A stretch of 64,000 nucleotides of DNA. Source: Glandiceps talaboti. Taxonomy: Eukaryota > Hemichordata > Enteropneusta > Spengelidae. A program made the position numbers and the translations under genes. The first letter of the stretch is position 1; each line of letters starts with the position of its first letter. Location: assembly GCF_964340395.1 (NCBI RefSeq), contig NC_135558.1:4420001-4484000 (forward strand), in the 5' to 3' direction. Shown piece after piece: positions 17,863-63,793 of this stretch. The notes under the pieces were generated by a model that was not told the DNA's origin, did no database searches, and saw only the letters and a list, made by a program, of their open reading frames with translations.

Positions 17863-18140
17863 TGAGCAGTTGCCTTCAAAGCTAGGGTATGTGAGCAGTT
17901 GCCTTCAAAACTTAGGGCATGTGAACAGTTGCCTTCAAAGCTTAGGGTATGTGAACAGTTGCCTTCAAAGCCTAGGGTATGTGAGCAGTTGCCTTCAAAA
18001 CTTAGGGTATGTGAGCAGTTGCCTTCAAAACTTAGGGTATGTGAAGAGTTGCCTTCAAAACTTAGGGTATGTGAGCAGTTGCCTTCAAAACTTGGGGTAT
18101 GTGAGTAGTTGCCTTCAAAACTTGGGCTTTGTGAGCGGGT
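17863..18140. repeat. 30-bp minisatellite, about 9 copies
   Basis: Tandem units of the form GAGCAGTTGCCTTCAAAACT plus TAGGGTATGT. The period is exactly 30 bp, so all three forward frames (and a reverse frame) stay open and spell 10-residue repeats. Units differ at a few sites without preference for synonymous change. There is no signal peptide, domain or splice structure, so it is best read as non-coding. Confidence 0.92.
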
Positions 18141-35800: not shown

Positions 35801-36953
35801 GGCGCAGAATACGGAACGACTAAACAGCATGCAGCACTCGGTACAGTAAAAGGACTATTTTCATGATACATCAAAAGGACACCTGGTACCGTAAAAGGGT
35901 ACGTGGTAGAGTACATAGCTCATCCAAAGCTGAGGGTGCTATCAAGGATTAAACTAGATAGATGTTTCTACCAATGCAATGTCTTCACTATTCAGGATCT
36001 TCACAAAAATCGTATCAGTTGCTCCTTGTGTTATCGACAACTGTTCGATAAAAGTTTCATCTAAATGCATCCACATTCTTTTTATAGTCAACCAACCAAC
36101 AATTAAAACAAACAGACAGGGTGGACGGGCGGGCGGACGGAGAGCCAGACAGACAGACGGGGATGAAAAGTATAAACCTCCATCTTTCTCTCGTTGACTG
36201 GCCTAACAATCGTTTCCGATGTCAGTTTAACAGAGTAAACTATTTTCAAGGTTTTCGTCGACAGTGAATTGTGTTACCTTATCGGGTGTATATTACTTCC
36301 AATACTATTGGCGATAGCAATTCATATGTGACACTTTACAGTACGCCATAAAGATGGTACTTAAAGAAGTGGATACCACGAATTCAAAGTATATGTAATC
36401 TTGTGTTGGTAATTGCTAGTATTACTCATGCTAACAAATGACACTTTGTCAAATTGTATGATTATATCAGACTAGAATTTCAAAAGAATAGTTCTCAGAC
36501 TGTCTAGTTTTTACATCGACATGAAAGTGATAAACTTGGGTGACAACAACATATATCTCAATATCGCGACCATTTGGAGAAACCTGATGCTGAACAAGAC
36601 GGCATAACTTATAATCTCGTCCTTATCTTGTGTTTCGTAATTGTCATCACACAAATGTGTATCTTTCTTTAGATAGAAATGTATATATCATTTCAAATAA
36701 CGAATTTGAGAAATGTTCAAAGACTTGAACGTAGATATACCACTCACTTGTACAGCTATCTAGTTGCTTTATAGTGTCATTTCTGAACCATTTTAAGATT
36801 CAACTTGAACGTACGGTAATGAAAGTCAAATCCCCCCCCCCCCGCAGCTATACATACGTCACACCATAGTAGAAAATAGTGTTCTGAGTATATACGTATA
36901 CACCCGCTAAATCAATCTTGAATAACTGAAAACTGTTTCTCTTTTTATTCCAG
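30137..36953. other. Gene-poor spacer upstream of the peptide precursor exon
   Basis: No exon with both splice sites and a recognisable product was found. It contains an (AAAAT)n run (31421-31441), the array at 32838, an RFX X-box match GTAACCATAGCAAC (33317-33330), and GGACGGGCGGGCGGACGG plus CAGACAGACAGACGG at 36120-36160. An untranslated first exon of the downstream peptide gene may be here but cannot be located from sequence. Confidence 0.45.
32838..32930. repeat. (ATGT)n microsatellite ending in (AGGT)n
   Basis: About 20 ATGT units followed by three GTAG units. Confidence 0.95.
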
Positions 36954-37336
36954 TTTTCTCTATGGCCGGCCTAGAAATAAGAGTGCTTTTGGTGTTGTCG
37001 ATAAGTCTATATTTATTAGCATGCACTGTACAACTAGTATCAGCAGCTGATGAAGATTGGACAGAGGATGAAAATGATGACACCATTGATAAGAAGAATG
37101 CTCATTTATTTACCAACCGACTTCTTTCGCATTTTCAAAATGCTGGATTTAAGGAGAGACGAAATGCCAACTTATTCACACAACGGTTGTTGAGCAGTAT
37201 CAGACACGAACTGGGACGTCGTGACAGGAGGAACGCTGCACTTTTTACTCAACGCCTATTGTCAAACTTAAAAGGATATAAACGAATGAGGGATTCCAGG
37301 GAATACGAACCTGCTGGAACCGTAGACTTACAATAA
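36954..37336 (+). CDS. Three-copy neuropeptide-like secreted precursor (NAxLFTxRLLS)
   Basis: A 124-residue protein starts at ATG 36962 and stops at TAA 37334-37336. The exon has an excellent acceptor (TTTTTATTCCAG, exon starts 36954), and a GTAAGG donor directly abuts the stop. Residues 1-29 form a signal peptide (basic/hydrophobic VLLVLSISLYLLAC, likely cut after VSA or SAA). An acidic spacer (30-43) follows, then three repeats beginning N46, N68 and N91: NAHLFTNRLLS, NANLFTQRLLS and NAALFTQRLLS. They are flanked by KK, RR, RRDRR and KR cleavage sites. Repeat 2 ends HELG-RR, which predicts an amidated C terminus; repeats 1 and 3 lack that Gly. Repeat DNA differs mostly at synonymous sites, strong evidence for selection on the peptide. 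A short acidic tail (109-124) closes the protein. Family unknown: the QRLL core resembles the middle of CRF/DH44/ELH-type peptides only weakly. Expected role: secreted neuroendocrine signal acting through a receptor. Confidence 0.88.
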
Positions 37337-37809
37337 GTAAGGGGCCTGGGTTATTTAAAAAATATACCATATATTCATGAACTGTATCTGTTTAGCATGT
37401 TTTGGGTAATTTTTACACTTGTTCGATACACAAAATAGTTCGATAACTACCAAACATGCACTGTACAATATATGTATATGTAAATGCCGCACACTTATGT
37501 ACAGTGTGTCATCGCAATATCTGATTTTTGTGTTAGCAGCACTCTATTAATATTGATAGACGGAGCAAGGGGCACGTCAACAAATGGGGCCGCATAGACA
37601 GTTCGAGATATTTACTTCTTAAAATAGTAATTGCTAAAATAGTAATTGCTTTTAAAGCATATGATATTGAACGACTGAGAAAAATAGCAAATTGAAAGCA
37701 TGAAGAGAAAAAACATGCAGCAAAATCGAAACATGGGGTCACAGGTGTGGTATTTTCACAACAAAGGTTATTACTGACTCCCTATTCTTCTTTTTTTCTA
37801 TACTTGCAG
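37337..37809 (+). other. Probable 3'-UTR intron and downstream UTR exon of the peptide gene
   Basis: GTAAGG begins at 37337, immediately after the stop codon, and a strong acceptor TTTTTTTCTATACTTGCAG ends at 37809. This suggests that the transcript continues in a non-coding exon from 37810. An AATAAA at 38451-38456 is a candidate polyadenylation signal. If the donor is unused, the 3' UTR simply reads through. The splice is predicted, not shown. Confidence 0.4.
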
Positions 37810-42242: not shown

Positions 42243-43660
42243 ATGGCGCTTATTCTTGTCTTGTATGTTACAGCTATCTTCATCTCGGAAGCTTATGGTA
42301 AATAGCCTTTAGATATGTATACCTCATAGTAATATCACGGAGAATGATATGTATATGGCCATATGGATTTCCGTGTAAACTGGTCATATTTGAGTTCATA
42401 CTACTTTGTAGATTAATAACCTTCGATTTATTTAAACTTGAGTCTATCTCTTGGTTTTTCAAAAGTTTTAATTTGAAAACCACAGTAACAAAACAGTAAA
42501 CATCTTTCCATAATTTAAATACCCCAACACTTTAAAATGTTACATGTGTATTATGCCTTTCCTAGTCTGCTAGGTTACATAGCCCAGAGAATTACTACTC
42601 CATAGATGTTGAAGTCGATTCTATGTGTGAACAGCCACCAGGCTATGTGTAATTTCACTGTAAATCTATTTCCATTTTATTTCCAAATTATCTCCTTAAA
42701 ATAGGTCATGGGAATAACGAATGCAGGGACAATTATTGTTCAAATGGCGGAACGTGTATTTCTAGAAGTTCCCGTAGATTATGTCGTTGTCCAACGCAAT
42801 TTTATGGAGACCGTTGCCAGTTTATGAGTACGTGTCCATAAACTTCCACATTTTTGGATTTTTCTTAGTCAAATATTGCACCCATGTCATCTAACTTTGT
42901 TTGGTTATGTTTATATGATATGATCAATGTGATTTTATGCCATACAATTTGTTTGGTTACAATATATTTTTTGATACGATATGATTTGTAGTCTTGTCTT
43001 GTCTTCTGTCGTGTCGTGTCGTCTTGTCTTGTCGTGTGCTTGTGTTGTGTTGTGTTGTGTTGTGTTGTGTTGTGTTGTGTTGTGTTGTGTTGTGTTGTGT
43101 TGTGTTGTGTTGTGTTATGTTGTGTTGTGTTGTGTTGTGTTGTGTTGTGTTGTGTTGTGTTGTGTTGTGTTGTGTTGTGTTGTGTTGTGCTGTGCTGTGC
43201 TGTGCTGTGTTGTGCTGTATTGTGCTGTACTGTGTTGTGTTGTGTTGTGTTGTGTTGTGTTGTGTTGTGTTGTGCTGTGTTGTGTTGTGTTGTGTTGTGT
43301 TGTGTTGTGCTGTGTTGTGCTGTGCTGTGCTGTGTTGTGCTGTATTGTGCTGTGCTGTGTTGTGTTGTGTTGTGTTGTGTTGTCTTGTGTTGTGTTGTGT
43401 TGTGTTGTGCTGTGCTGTGCTGTGTTGTGCTGTGTTGTGTTGTGTTGTGTTGTGTTGTGTTGTGTTGTGTTGTGCTGTGCTGTGCTGTGCTGTGTTGTGG
43501 TGTGTTGTGTTGTGCTGTGCTGTGCTGTCCTATGTTGTGCTGTATTGTTCTGTGTAATTTTGTTGTGTTATGCTGTCCTGTTTGTATTTTCTATGCCGTA
43601 TAGTAGTGTACGTATGTGTATCACGTAATGAAAACCATGGCTATCGTAAAAACAGAGGCA

Positions 43661-43722
<62 letters not shown>

Positions 43723-44351
43723 GTGTGTGTACGTACGTACTGAGAGTACATATATAATATAGTCGGCAACTATGTGTAGACAGATATTCATACATATAAG
43801 TCTCCATCGATAATCTAGCACGTACACCAGGTGATGGCACGTATTCCAATATAATTCCAAATATTCAATCTGATAACAACAAAAATTACCCACTGAACAA
43901 TATTTTAAATTGAAAAAAAAAACCACCTATATCCAGACTGTGAAACTCTACAGTCAAATGGATTTCCTGAGTAATTTGGATTGTAAAACCACCTTTTAAA
44001 CAACAACATTTTCGTCCTAAAAATTATTGATGTTAAAACGTAGGTCTCACGTCATCTGTTAGATTTTACTCTGTCATAAGATATGCAGAATTTATGTCTT
44101 GTAACCATGGTAACACGGTAATCATTTAGCCTGCTGTGTGCCTACACGGATCGGCCATAGCGGGTGGCCAAATTTCAAGGAAAACCGCTGAAACTAAAGT
44201 ACATGTATTAAATTAAATATTGTCTTCGCAGCTTACGATGCAAACATATGTGACACCAAGCCTTGCCAGAATCATGGTACATGTATTCCTGGTTTCCATA
44301 GTTACGACTGTGTCTGTAAATTCGGCTATTATGGACAGGATTGCGAAATAG
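42243..44351 (+). CDS. Secreted protein with two EGF-like repeats (at least three exons)
   Basis: Exon 1 (42243-42297) encodes MALILVLYVTAIFISEAY, a signal peptide, and ends in phase 1 at G|GTAAAT. Exon 2 (42705-42827, after ..TTAAAATAG) encodes an EGF domain with six cysteines spaced C-x4-C-x5-C-x8-C-x1-C-x8-C, including NYCSNGGTC and CRCPTQFYGDRC. Exon 3 (44232-44351, after CTTCGCAG, donor ATAG|GTAATT) encodes a second EGF domain, ICDTKPCQNHGTC then CVCKFGYYGQDCEI. Every junction is phase 1, the classic symmetric arrangement that lets EGF exons duplicate. No calcium-binding DxD/E signature precedes the first cysteines. EGF modules are extracellular and mediate binding. The ligand and orthologue are unknown. 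More exons may follow (see 44778-45001). Confidence 0.8.
42979..43575. repeat. (TTGTG)n pentanucleotide satellite, about 540 bp
   Basis: A near-continuous TGTGT/TTGTG pentamer array with interspersed TGTGC variants. It is preceded by TCTTG/TCGTG variant pentamers (42993-43040) that look like its degenerate margin. It sits in the intron between the two EGF exons. All three forward frames are open because neither variant creates a stop; not coding. Confidence 0.96.
43663..43730. repeat. (TG)n microsatellite in EGF-gene intron
   Basis: A pure TG run ending in GTACGTACGTAC. About 370 bp downstream is an exact X-box palindrome GTAACCATGGTAAC (44101-44114). Confidence 0.95.
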
Positions 44352-44490
44352 GTAATTTTAATGTAACATATTATATAACTAAGGCTGAAATGATAATTTC
44401 GTCAGATTGGACCTTGTTTAGTCCTATACGCGCTACGATCATTTCCACTGTATAGTCCATGGATGTCTCGAGAACAGCATTCCGTTCTTA

Positions 44491-53900: not shown

Positions 53901-56900
53901 ACGGTAACATTTCACTGTCTATTTACATTCATGTGCAAAAATTCATGTGTTAATGATTGTATCTGTGTATTGTAACTTGTAACTACATGTTTTGAAACAC
54001 TTTGAAATGCCCAGATTTTGTATGTTGTCTACATTTGATGTGTTTACAGGGGTTGGACTCAGTGAGTTGCTAGTCAACTACCTCCCTTTAAAATTACTTT
54101 ATTTTTAACATTTCGGCTACACATGTACACAGATGGCCTTCTTCAAGGAACAGAACTGGAGCAATGAAAGGATGCTTGTACCTGTGATGACTAGACACTA
54201 GTGAAAGCCATCATTCCAGGGTTACAACCTAGCCATCACTCCAGGCACAAACATTCTTTGATAGCCAATTTTGTTGTTGTGGGTCAAAATGATAACTGTC
54301 ATTTCTTGTTAGTCTCCATGTAGAAAGAGATAGGGGAACATCAAATTTTGGTGTGTCACTAGAAATTGTGTGCATCAGTGGCACATCAAATTGACTTAGA
54401 GGGCAAACTGACTACTACAGTATAAGGTAACAACTACAATTGTTGTTTATTACTAAAAGAATCCCGATCATTATGCAAGACAGAAAAACACAAATATACT
54501 TACTGAATTTACTCTAAATGTCAATGTTGGTCCTCTTGGCAATCTGCTAATTTTCTAAAAATGAAAAATTTGAAAGTATATGAGACAATTTCTTATTTAA
54601 ATTCATTTTGAGATATTCATAATGTAATATTTCAGTAGGTGACTGGTTATGTGTATCACAGTCCTCTTTTTTTTTCAAAAGATTGATTCTTGATACACTT
54701 CCTGTCATTTTTACAATTCAGTTCTGACAGGCCAAAAAAATAAAGATATTTACTTGCACCATCATGTTCTATGATTTTCATAGAGTGTGAATTCAGTCTT
54801 TTTATGATTTTTAGGTCCTAAATATCAACGAGAACAAATATTCTTGGACTCTGGGTTCATAGTATCAAATGAAAATTAAAAAGAAATTTTGTTGAAAATT
54901 TGGGATTTATTTTGAAGTATTTTTATAACTCTCAAATTAAAATGTCCAAAACTACCAACATTTTTGGTATGATATGATACATTTTTATAGGGATTAAGTT
55001 AGACTGTGTCACAATGGAATGCTTCAACAAACCAAATATTGCCAAATATATGTATACCTGTATCATTTCTATCACACATGTCCAGAGAACAAGAAAATGA
55101 AATTGGTAATTTTGCTCATCAACCTTGGTGTTCACGTCAGTGTCTTTGTTTTGGAACAACAAAATAGATGAAAGTTAATTAAGTATTGTTCATTGAAGAC
55201 GCTTAGATTACAGTGCAAAAAAATAATGATATGACGGCTGCAATATATGTGGAATTAATTTATGAAGGTAAGAGGGCAAGAATGTAGAACAGTGGACTGA
55301 CTTTACAATAGAATACATATTTGTATTCAAGTTAGGGAGTTCAGCTTAGATTTAGATGAGGGATAGGAACAGGATTAGACTCCCTAGCCTAAACCTGATT
55401 TGTACCGACTCAAATGAATGAGACACTGTTGTACATGTGTCCTGGTAACACTATAATGAGATGATAAACTTATCCTGAAAGATATTTTCTGTCAATCTCT
55501 TTGTAAATTAATGTTTTGAAGTCCTTATTTACTGTAACTTTTGAACTCACCAAATTAATTCCTACTTCTGTTCTTGTGAATGCTATAATATGACTAACTC
55601 CTAAAGGTCCAGCTACACTTACAAAGTCCTTCAATACATTCTTCCTGTGTACCTGAAAGAAACAAAATTACATGTACCTATGGTTAAGTATTTGTCACTG
55701 CAGTTGTCATGGTAACACATTCTTAATAATAACAGCACAACTCTACAGATGACATACACATACATGTATGCTCACAGCTAGCTATATCTCCAGTTTAAAA
55801 TTATGCACATTCCCCTGCCGCCACCACCACCACCACCACCACCACCACCACCACCACCACCACCAAACAACAACATTGAGTGGATCAGCTATTAGCATTA
55901 CTACCACATCACTATAGTTGTCACCACCACCACCACCACCACCACCACTAGTCATCATCATTACTGCCACCACCACCACCACCATCATTGTCGTCGTTGT
56001 CATCATCATCATATGGAAAGCCGGTTGGGACCATCGTCGTCAACACTACATTGCATAGAAAAAGCCTATCAAAGTCGTCGCCGTCATCGGCTGTTGTCGA
56101 CGATAAAACTAGCTACACACGCCAATGTGGACCTTCATCGTCGTCGTCATCACCATCACCATGCATGCAAATTTGTCGTCATCGTTGGCCAAGTATGTGA
56201 CATCATCGTTGATGCCTTTTAACAAGTCGTCATCGTCGATGGCCTAATATACTAAAAATAGCCTATATGCGACACCATCGATGTTGAAAAATGCACATGC
56301 GCAGAAGATGTCTTTTAACAAGTCGTCTTCGTCGACGGCCTAAATACTAAAAATAGCCTATATGCGACACCATCGATGTCGAAAAACGCACATGTGTAGA
56401 AGATGCCTTTTAAAAAAGTTGTTGTCGTTGGCAACTTTGCAACATGCATCGTCGTTGGCCGAGGGCGACGATGACAACAAGAAGTGCATGCACCAATGGC
56501 ACTCGGACAAAACAGCGTCAACAGCTAGCGCTGAGGACGTAAATGCAACACCGGTATCCAACACCGGTACTCGGTGATACTTACCATGAAAAACAAACCC
56601 ATAAAAAACGTAACGCCTTACGTGTAAATAAACGTGTAGTAAATAAACGATTTTTTCTTGATCTCTAATTAATGTGTGTCTGATATTACGTTTTATTTGT
56701 AGCCCTGTTTGAGAAAAACACAAGTAGGAAAACCAAATCTACACCCAAGGGATCATCAAAATATCATAATGATTATGATGACTACGGCTCAAAATGACAT
56801 GCTAAATTTATTTCCCTACACACTATGACAACTTGACATGATAAGTACTGAACACTGCCGAGTTCCAGGCATGGGGTTAGAAATGTCAGTCATTAATACA

Positions 56901-58045
56901 ACCCAGATTCTTTGAAAATACAAGCTATGAGTATAAACAGCCGGAAATAAACAAGATAAAAGTGTTGCATTTACGTCCTCAACGCTAGCTGTTGACGCTG
57001 TTTTGTCCGAGTGCCATTGGTGCATGCACTTCTTGTTGTCATCGTCGCCCTCGGCCAACGACTTTTTTAAAAGGCATCTTCTACGCATGTGCATTTTTCG
57101 ACATCGATGGTGTCGCATATAGGCTATTTTTAGTATTTAGGCCGTCGACGAAGACGACTTGTTAAAAGGCATCTTCTGCGCATGTGCGTTTTTCAACATC
57201 GATGGTGTCGCATATAGGCTATTTTTAGTATATTAGGCCATCGACGATGACGACTTGTTAAAAGGCATCAACGATGATGTCGCATACTTGGCCAACGATG
57301 ACGACAAATTTGCATGCATGGTGATGGTGATGACGACGACGATGAAGGTCCACATTGGCGTGTGTAGCTAGTTTTATCGTCGACAACAGCCGATGACGAT
57401 GACGACTTTGATAGGCTTTTTCTATGCAATGTAGCGTTGACGACGATGGTCCCAACCGGCTTTCCATATCATCACTACCACCACCACCAACAACAACACC
57501 ATCATCATCATCTATCGTCATTGACACCACACAACTATCCCTGTTGTTGTCATCATCACCACCACCACCACCACCACCACCACTGTGTACCACCATCACC
57601 ATCAATATTGTGAATTAACATGTGACGAACTGTCTGGAAATTGTAATTGATATGAAATGAACAGAGCAAAAAATACATACCCTAAGATTCGATGCTGTAT
57701 ATGGTTCCATCATTCTCCTTGTGTCTAGTACGAGTTGCCTGATGTTTCTACCAACCAGACCACGGTGAAATACAAATGAATGAGGTGCTTTGTTGATGTC
57801 ACTAAACTGTAATACTCTACTAGTTGCTGCGCGTATTTTTCGCGTTTCTTTGCTCTGGATATATAAAAAAATATATAGTTATTTCAAAAAGATGTTCCAG
57901 TACATCCTGAAGCTTCAGTGTAACATAAGCTTCGTTATGCCGCCTATGCGGGTTGCGAAGTTGCAAGGAATCGGTTACGTTACAGTCACTGCACTGAAGT
58001 TTACGGTCAAAATTCACTTACCTTTCCCTTCCGTTTGCGTGCCAT
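47914..58045 (-). CDS. PPAN: Peter Pan / SSF1 homologue, Brix-domain ribosome biogenesis factor (14 exons, complete)
   Basis: Nucleolar Brix-family protein needed for 27S pre-rRNA processing and 60S subunit assembly (SSF1/2 in yeast). Exons in transcript order: 58022-58045, 57681-57854, 55551-55652, 54504-54554, 53645-53815, 53030-53106, 52149-52256, 51741-51864, 50780-50858, 50280-50334, 49807-49881, 49539-49615, 48503-48589, 47914-48131. All introns are GT-AG; phases are consistent and total 1422 nt (473 codons plus stop), the length I recall for human PPAN. Diagnostic stretches: APHSFVFHRG and GRNIRQLVLDTRRMMEPYTA (exon 2), VAGPLGVSH, LPRGPTLTFRV, HPLLVLNNF and QNMFPSINV (exon 5), IKVVPVGMSRGVKKL, PGYLSESEAE, QQSAVRLVEIGPRMKLQLLK. 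The Brix domain spans roughly residues 28-300. The acidic DDDMEDDVDWY and very Lys-rich C-terminal tail (KKKMKVKQEKAAKVEKRK) match the family's nucleolar tail. The start MARKRKGK is the only in-frame ATG at the conserved N terminus. Confidence 0.96.
48240..48268. repeat. (GTCG/GTCA)n tetranucleotide run, PPAN intron 13
   Basis: CAGTCGGTCGGTCGGTCGGT-type repeat between the last two PPAN exons. Confidence 0.9.
48461..48495. repeat. Poly-C / poly-A homopolymer junction
   Basis: About 16 C then about 19 A, ending 8 bp before the exon 13 boundary at 48503. On the transcribed strand it is a poly-T then poly-G stretch starting just downstream of the GTCAGA donor. Confidence 0.9.
49018..49165. repeat. 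Tandem units of about 60 bp, PPAN intron 12
   Basis: The phrase ATATGCAGGTACCCTGGGTA recurs at 49080 and 49140. A more diverged unit (GTATCCAGAGTATGGCA) lies upstream, and each unit is followed by an ACACA(T/G)-GTAT(G/A)CA segment. Confidence 0.75.
49180..49490 (+). mobile_element. SINE-like retroelement, PPAN intron 12 (antisense to the gene)
   Basis: It begins with a degenerate tRNA-promoter-like head (GTTGGCTTTGAATGTGCTAG, B-box-like GATTCAAACC at about 49217). A middle section contains CCTTAGGCAAGATTTGAACC and CAGTCAACCCAGCTGTATAT. The tail AATAATTGTAAAGCGCTTTA then AGCACAGAGTAGAAAAGC is a motif type I associate with 3' tails of SINEs in marine invertebrate genomes. No open frame matters here. 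Family assignment is from memory of such tails. Confidence 0.55.
50155..50278. repeat. Three tandem units of about 45-50 bp, PPAN intron 10
   Basis: The phrase CACCTGGTATTAAAGCTCTT (third copy TACCTGGTATTAAAGCTCAT) recurs at about 50161, 50201 and 50253, with AACCAATCA and CATTTTATTTTGTA between. It abuts the donor of exon 10. Confidence 0.88.
51230..51722. repeat. 70-bp minisatellite, PPAN intron 8
   Basis: About seven units of GTCTGCATCTATCTCAGTGT, then CAACCCTTGTCAGTCTCTTT, then CTCTCTACAAGTGTGTCTCC and CTGTACGT. Unit starts at about 51523 and 51593 give the 70-bp period; one unit has a 6-bp insertion (TTACAA). Open frames on both strands across it are repeat artefacts. The array ends only about 20 bp from the exon 8 donor at 51740. 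Confidence 0.94.
52697..52803. repeat. (GACA)n/(GATG)n compound array, PPAN intron 6
   Basis: GACAGACAGACAGCCAGACA and GATGGATGGATGGACAGACA blocks alternate twice, an approximately 45-bp higher-order duplication of a tetranucleotide repeat. Confidence 0.92.
55818..55985. repeat. (CCA)n trinucleotide arrays left of the foldback
   Basis: Pure CCA/CAC runs at 55818-55865, 55922-55949 and 55968-55983, separated by short unique text and grading into ATC repeats (about 55983-56010). Confidence 0.93.
56011..57469. mobile_element. Long-arm foldback element in PPAN intron 2
   Basis: The left arm 56011-56551 begins ATATGGAAAGCCGGTTGGGA and the right arm 56962-57469 ends with its reverse complement (TCCCAACCGGCTTTCCATAT). 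The arms pair over about 505 bp with few mismatches; the left arm carries an extra approximately 33-bp segment (around 56417-56450). A 410-bp unpaired middle lies at 56552-56961. Inside each arm an approximately 95-bp unit (CTTTTAACAAGTCGTC...CACATGCGCAGAAGATG) is tandemly repeated about 2.3 times. There is no transposase or long open frame. It is flanked on both sides by CCA/ATC triplet arrays in the same orientation, as if inserted into a triplet array. Best read as a Foldback-type or long-inverted-repeat non-autonomous transposon. The PPAN pre-mRNA would contain a very long hairpin. Confidence 0.88.
57476..57605. repeat. (CCA)n/(CAT)n triplet array right of the foldback
   Basis: CACCACCACCAACAACAACA, CATCATCATCAT and CACCACCACCACCACCACCA runs, in the same orientation as the array left of the foldback. 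Confidence 0.92.
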
Positions 58046-60627: not shown

Positions 60628-63686
<3,059 letters not shown>

Positions 63687-63793
63687 CTGTATTATTAGTG
63701 AAAAATAAAAAAATAATTTGAAATCTTTTGAAACAAAGAGCTGCATGCTTTTATTCATTTTATAACACAAATCAATAATTATATACATCAATC

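Follow-up and report, generated by a model that had tools for sequence, protein, structure and literature searches.

A putative three-copy neuropeptide precursor of possible PDF type in the acorn worm Glandiceps talaboti

An open frame in the genome of the hemichordate Glandiceps talaboti contains three tandem copies of a short peptide unit, and raises the question of whether it encodes a genuine neuropeptide precursor and, if so, to which peptide family the products belong. The frame lies in a window of 64,000 nucleotides, the whole stretch of DNA that was analysed (assembly GCF_964340395.1, contig NC_135558.1, positions 4,420,001 to 4,484,000 of the forward strand), and coordinates below are those of the window. 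The precursor is very probably a genuine neuropeptide-like one. Its assignment is more tentative: the reading that we favour, with a probability of about 45%, is that it is a short, divergent member of the PDF type, whose peptides would most likely act on a class B1 receptor. Transcription, processing and neural expression of the precursor, the class of its receptor and its PDF identity are all predicted from the DNA.

The precursor gene and its repeated unit

The 124-residue precursor is read on the plus strand from an ATG at 36962 to a TAA ending at 37336, apparently within a single exon. The arrangement described in the earlier note, a signal peptide, an acidic spacer and three tandem peptides set off by KK, RR, RRDRR and KR, was recovered in full by translation and repeat alignment. 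The start that had been given for the feature, 36954, is instead the first base after a putative splice acceptor AG (36952-36953, plus strand) and is stop-rich when translated; the frame opens at the ATG. The acceptor (TTTCTCTTTTTATTCCAG) follows a pyrimidine tract, with pyrimidines at 15 of the 17 bases scored, and we infer that a 5' exon lies upstream of it.

All parts of the precursor are on the plus strand. Residues 1-28 (36962-37045) form a predicted signal peptide with a hydrophobic N terminus and a likely VSA cut site, recognized by eye and with the -3,-1 rule rather than with a trained predictor; six neighbouring positions satisfy the rule. The acidic spacer ADEDWTEDENDDTID (37046-37090; computed net charge -9) leads to the KK site (37091-37096) and to peptide 1, NAHLFTNRLLSHFQNAGFKE (37097-37156), which has no amidation glycine. 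After RR (37157-37162) comes peptide 2, NANLFTQRLLSSIRHEL-G (37163-37216), for which a C-terminal amide is predicted because the glycine directly precedes the next site, RRDRR (37217-37231). Peptide 3, NAALFTQRLLSNLKGY (37232-37279), again has no amidation glycine, and is followed by KR (37280-37285) and the C-terminal tail MRDSREYEPAGTVDLQ (37286-37333). Directly 3' of the stop codon is a donor-like GTAAGG (37337-37342) that agrees with the consensus at six of nine positions, the highest score in the stretch scored, shared with two other sites; its position next to the stop codon weakly suggests a possible intron in the 3' untranslated region.

The repeated unit, NAxLFT(N/Q)RLLS, starts at residues 46, 68 and 91, and nine of its 11 core positions (N1, A2, L4, F5, T6, R8, L9, L10 and S11) are fixed in all three copies. 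Pairs of copies share 9, 9 and 10 of their 11 core residues but have two identical codons per pair, and their core nucleotide identity is 18/33, 19/33 and 18/33. The proportion of synonymous differences (pS) over the 11 codons is 0.98, 0.87 and 1.16 for the three pairs, against proportions of non-synonymous differences (pN) of 0.30, 0.27 and 0.23; a comparison over 16 codons gives pS 0.79-1.07 and pN 0.37-0.38. Since pS is saturated while pN is low, the core peptide has been retained by selection, and the duplications of the unit look old. The earlier note had argued for selection from the use of different codons for the same residues, and had proposed a synonymous/non-synonymous comparison of the repeats. 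The argument holds up: with two shared codons per pair, silent sites are saturated (pS 0.87-1.16) and pN is 0.23-0.30 over the core.

The length of the frame is unremarkable: when 300 stretches of 10 kilobases were simulated with a first-order Markov model, 34 contained a frame of at least 136 codons. The reality of the gene thus rests on the repeats and the dibasic sites around them, on an N terminus that resembles a signal peptide, and on the saturation of silent sites. These include the features by which neuropeptide precursors are recognized, namely a signal-like N terminus, dibasic-flanked repeats, and a peptide kept while its codons diverge.

The genome searched comprised 590.4 megabases (Mb) in 47 contigs. 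Two candidates were scored for the precursor protein and one matched at an expectation value (E) of 0.001 or less. A degenerate pattern for the motif had four matches, three in the precursor gene and one in an 18-codon frame without cleavage sites; the reversed control pattern had one. A gene family or paralogue was accordingly rejected, and the precursor gene is, by these searches, single-copy.

Comparison with known peptide families and receptors

The principal lead towards PDF comes from alignment anchored at the mature N terminus, with significance estimated by shuffling. PDF was the best of 11 families: its score was equalled 16 times in 2000 shuffles, or about 0.09 once the number of families is corrected for, followed by VIP/PACAP (82), calcitonin (171) and CRF (480). 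Of the two faint likenesses suggested by the earlier note, that of the NA-L start to PDF thus ranks first; that of the QRLL core to CRF/DH44/ELH does not rise above chance here or in free local alignment (152 of 1000 shuffles).

There are other likenesses. Peptides of the PDF type also begin with N-[A/S]-x-[L/I] and have L-L some ten residues or less further on, echinoderm PDF precursors also carry more than one peptide between dibasic sites, and those of starfish and sea cucumber also mix amidated-type and glycine-less peptides in one precursor. The starfish precursor (KT601709) contains peptides of 35 residues (with the amidation glycine) and 29 residues (PMC4772807; this and other papers are cited for particular passages), and that of the sea cucumber A. 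japonicus, encoded by four coding exons, contains peptides of 35 and 32 residues, one with an amidation glycine (PMC6586643). The sea-urchin PDF precursor was formerly named CRH (PMC4772807). The mixed PDF and CRF flavour that the earlier note perceived resembles the impression behind that misnaming, and an ambulacrarian PDF might well have such a character, although this is suggestive only.

Several points weigh against the PDF assignment. The anchored test was devised once local alignment had given nothing, so that its result is a lead rather than proof. In free local alignment to a panel of 12 families, the score was reached in 69 of 1000 column shuffles for VIP/PACAP, 94 for NPY, 140 for PDF and 152 for CRF, and no family appears convincingly above chance. 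The precursor is not picked out by the Pfam PDF model, PF06324, and a one-residue gap is required to align the peptides with PDF. There are three peptides here and two in the echinoderm precursors; they have 16-20 residues rather than 29-35, and are apparently encoded by one coding exon rather than the four of A. japonicus, though neither length nor exon number may be a defining feature.

Genome scans with the profile models were of limited use. The PDF model gave three matches from seven candidates (E 0.59-9.94), of which the best, at 20.5 bits against a cut-off of 20.3, belongs to a frame that looks like leucine-rich repeats; neither of the remaining frames resembles a precursor. The CRF model gave two matches from five candidates (E 3.66 and 4.68), both below the cut-off and neither precursor-like; the precursor gene was not listed. 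Each model also had a match below the cut-off in one control genome out of 14. These negatives say little, because short peptides obtain low scores in a search space of 590 Mb.

Searches of the databases and the literature yielded no usable relative. The whole precursor had a calcitonin match in Pfam below the threshold (E 0.011; 16.7 bits against a cut-off of 22.3), which was lost once the signal peptide was removed, and a calcitonin type was rejected on this ground. DUF2279, a bacterial lipoprotein family, also scored below the Pfam threshold (E 0.14 for the whole precursor, 0.053 without the signal peptide), and the single NCBIfam match, archaemetzincin (E 0.11), was far under its cut-off; both were treated as chance. 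The three peptide pieces alone had no Pfam match, and the precursor had none in PDB at E <= 10. In a set of 5.8 billion proteins there were 20 word-sharing candidates, with zero at E <= 10. In the text of 5.39 million papers, figures and supplements aside, six motif strings of 7 or 8 residues were not found, nor did any two of five shorter strings occur together, or any one of them with "neuropeptide". The main text of PMC10508912, on Saccoglossus peptides, does not mention PDF, and the NAxLFTxRLLS motif does not occur in the passages of that paper covered here. The missing matches are weak evidence, the hemichordate share of the protein libraries not being established. They agree with the earlier note in that the motif could not be placed in a known family; its suggestion of an undescribed family goes further than they allow. 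A PDF-type precursor is already in print for the hemichordate Saccoglossus (GI:187067819, cited in PMC4772807).

Two further ligand types were considered. VIP, PACAP, secretin and glucagon resemble the peptides here in having FT close to the N terminus, and VIP/PACAP ranked second in the anchored alignment, while in the local one its score was reached by the fewest shuffles; the peptides here, however, have no N-terminal His or Tyr. A review dates the PACAP system to the time after protostomes and deuterostomes had diverged, and gives cephalochordates as the invertebrates with the nearest form (PMC7251081). The resemblance to calcitonin/DH31 consists of the weak Pfam match to the whole precursor, whereas the peptides have neither a cysteine pair nor a C-terminal proline.

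Receptors with which such a ligand could pair are present. The HRM model gave five genome matches above the cut-off from 46 candidates, and exons L007 and L011 are among those found with it. By comparison with PDB, exon L008 is calcitonin-receptor-like (E 1.1e-11) and L010 CRF-receptor-like (E 2.2e-8); L009 is nearest to the PTH receptor (E 3.9e-6) with several others close, so that its class is uncertain. On contig C5, at 18.19-18.52 Mb, calcitonin-, CRF- and PTH-receptor-like class B1 N-terminal exons, three in number, lie within about 0.32 Mb. Such receptors are to be expected for a class B1 ligand of whatever family, and give PDF no preference over the others.

Under the favoured reading, a single-copy gene of this hemichordate would encode a secreted precursor from which the signal peptide is removed. 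Prohormone convertases would then cut at KK, RR, RRDRR and KR, and a carboxypeptidase would trim the basic residues, leaving three related peptides: the first of 20 residues, the second of 17 and amidated, the third of 16, with computed [M+H]+ values of 2344.19, 2011.12 (as the amide) and 1809.00. These would share the fixed N-terminal NAxLFTxRLLS, differ at their C-terminal ends, and act as neuropeptides or hormones on a G-protein-coupled receptor, most likely of class B1.

Other features of the window and the mitochondrial contig

Downstream of the precursor, two EGF-like frames above the Pfam cut-off (42653-42838 and 44198-44452, plus strand) may both be exons of a single multi-EGF gene for an extracellular protein. 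The minus strand of 60628-63791 contains exons of an HSP70 resident in the endoplasmic reticulum (BiP/HSPA5-like, with an RDEL end), three frames of which match Pfam HSP70 at E 1.6e-74, 9.5e-25 and 2.2e-36. A long minisatellite with units of 44, 88 and 132 base pairs (bp) occupies 409-2103, and an open frame at 245-580 runs into its start. Another, at 17863-18136, has 9.2 copies of a 30-bp unit with 92% match and is open on both strands, the plus strand reading a repeated CLQNLGYVSS; these frames are probably coincidental, since 30 is a multiple of three. A near-identical translation (MESRLGPSSSTLHCIEKAYQSR...) is found on opposite strands at 55896-56413 and 57058-57614, both of which contain 95-bp tandem units; the pair constitutes a large inverted repeat that may be a mobile element.

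The mitochondrial contig (C40, 51,222 bases) is a tandem assembly with three cox1 copies 15,435 bases apart. The stretch of it that was read (15,495 bases) is 53% G+C, and has the order cox1, cox2, atp6, cob, cox3, nd3, nd4L, nd4, nd5, nd6 (minus strand), nd1, nd2, with gene names assigned by eye from translations of open frames. Among ten plus-strand genes, leaving aside atp8, nd4L and nd6, AAA is used 0 times and AAG 47 times. The four ATA codons of cox1 sit at what we take to be isoleucine positions of the protein. ATA is read as isoleucine in both echinoderms and hemichordates, and AAA goes unused in Balanoglossus carnosus, encodes lysine in Saccoglossus and stands for asparagine in echinoderms (PMC2697986). 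The same paper describes a virtually vertebrate gene order in Balanoglossus, where nd6 alone among the protein genes is minus-strand, and very different orders in echinoderms. The unused AAA, the apparent reading of ATA as isoleucine and the minus-strand position of nd6 alone thus mark the animal as a hemichordate, probably an acorn worm; a mollusc or annelid, at first suggested by the microsatellites, was rejected on this mitochondrial evidence. One point against is the place of cob, which adjoins nd5 in Balanoglossus and Saccoglossus (PMC2697986) but has atp6 and cox3 as neighbours here.

Alternative explanations and meaning

A credible alternative, to which we incline somewhat less, is a neuropeptide family confined to hemichordates and unrelated to PDF, with a receptor of another class. 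Such a family would be expected to leave the databases and literature without a usable match and local alignment without a family convincingly above chance, as was found, and phylum-restricted neuropeptide families exist in other animals (PMC8557429). The anchored similarity to PDF speaks against it, and the absent matches count for little while the hemichordate content of the libraries is not established. It is possible, though unlikely, that the peptides form a branch of class B1 ligands that has not been described before in hemichordates, short and in three copies, with a PDF-like N terminus and a CRF/DH44-like QRLL core.

A CRH/DH44/ELH-type precursor with a shortened and repeated peptide is improbable. 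It would account for the QRLL core, which is common to insect DH44 and molluscan ELH, and a CRF-receptor-like exon is present in the genome; but the panel peptides of these families have 36-44 residues, unlike the 16-20 here, their similarity does not rise above chance (480/2000 anchored, 152/1000 local), and the CRF scan does not list the gene. Multi-copy precursors do occur in this group, the DH44 precursors of the annelid Platynereis having 13 and 16 copies (PMC3890597), whereas starfish CRH is a single 41-residue peptide (PMC4772807). That the secreted product is no neuropeptide but, for example, an antimicrobial or lytic peptide of the epidermis is if anything less probable still. The peptides are secreted, repeated, short and cysteine-free, and the body of acorn worms is covered in mucus, but their net charge is only +1 to +2 (His excluded), their mean hydrophobicity is -0.09 to 0.05, and their hydrophobic moments are no better than those of shuffles (355, 341 and 473 of 2000). 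With charge and moment unremarkable, this candidate was rejected; moreover, a fixed N terminus with a variable C terminus suits a receptor ligand. An unexpressed relic or chance frame would be consistent with a length that lies within chance expectation, but is very improbable: the three units keep their residues while their silent sites are saturated, dibasic sites border them in four places, the N terminus looks like a signal peptide, and an acceptor lies just upstream.

Acorn worms provide an outgroup for judging chordate neuroendocrine systems. Because PDF signalling is reported to have been lost in chordates and to be present in ambulacrarians (PMC4772807), a hemichordate ligand that is short and multi-copy would have implications for what the peptide was like ancestrally. 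It would also bear on the pairing of PDF with the calcitonin and CRH receptors of the same class; in a sea cucumber, calcitonin peptides act on PDF-type receptors (PMC12638048). The predicted peptides are short enough for direct synthesis and testing. If they should instead prove to represent an undescribed class B1 branch, they could reveal a relation between PDF and CRF, or the gain of a new ligand by a class B1 receptor of acorn worms.
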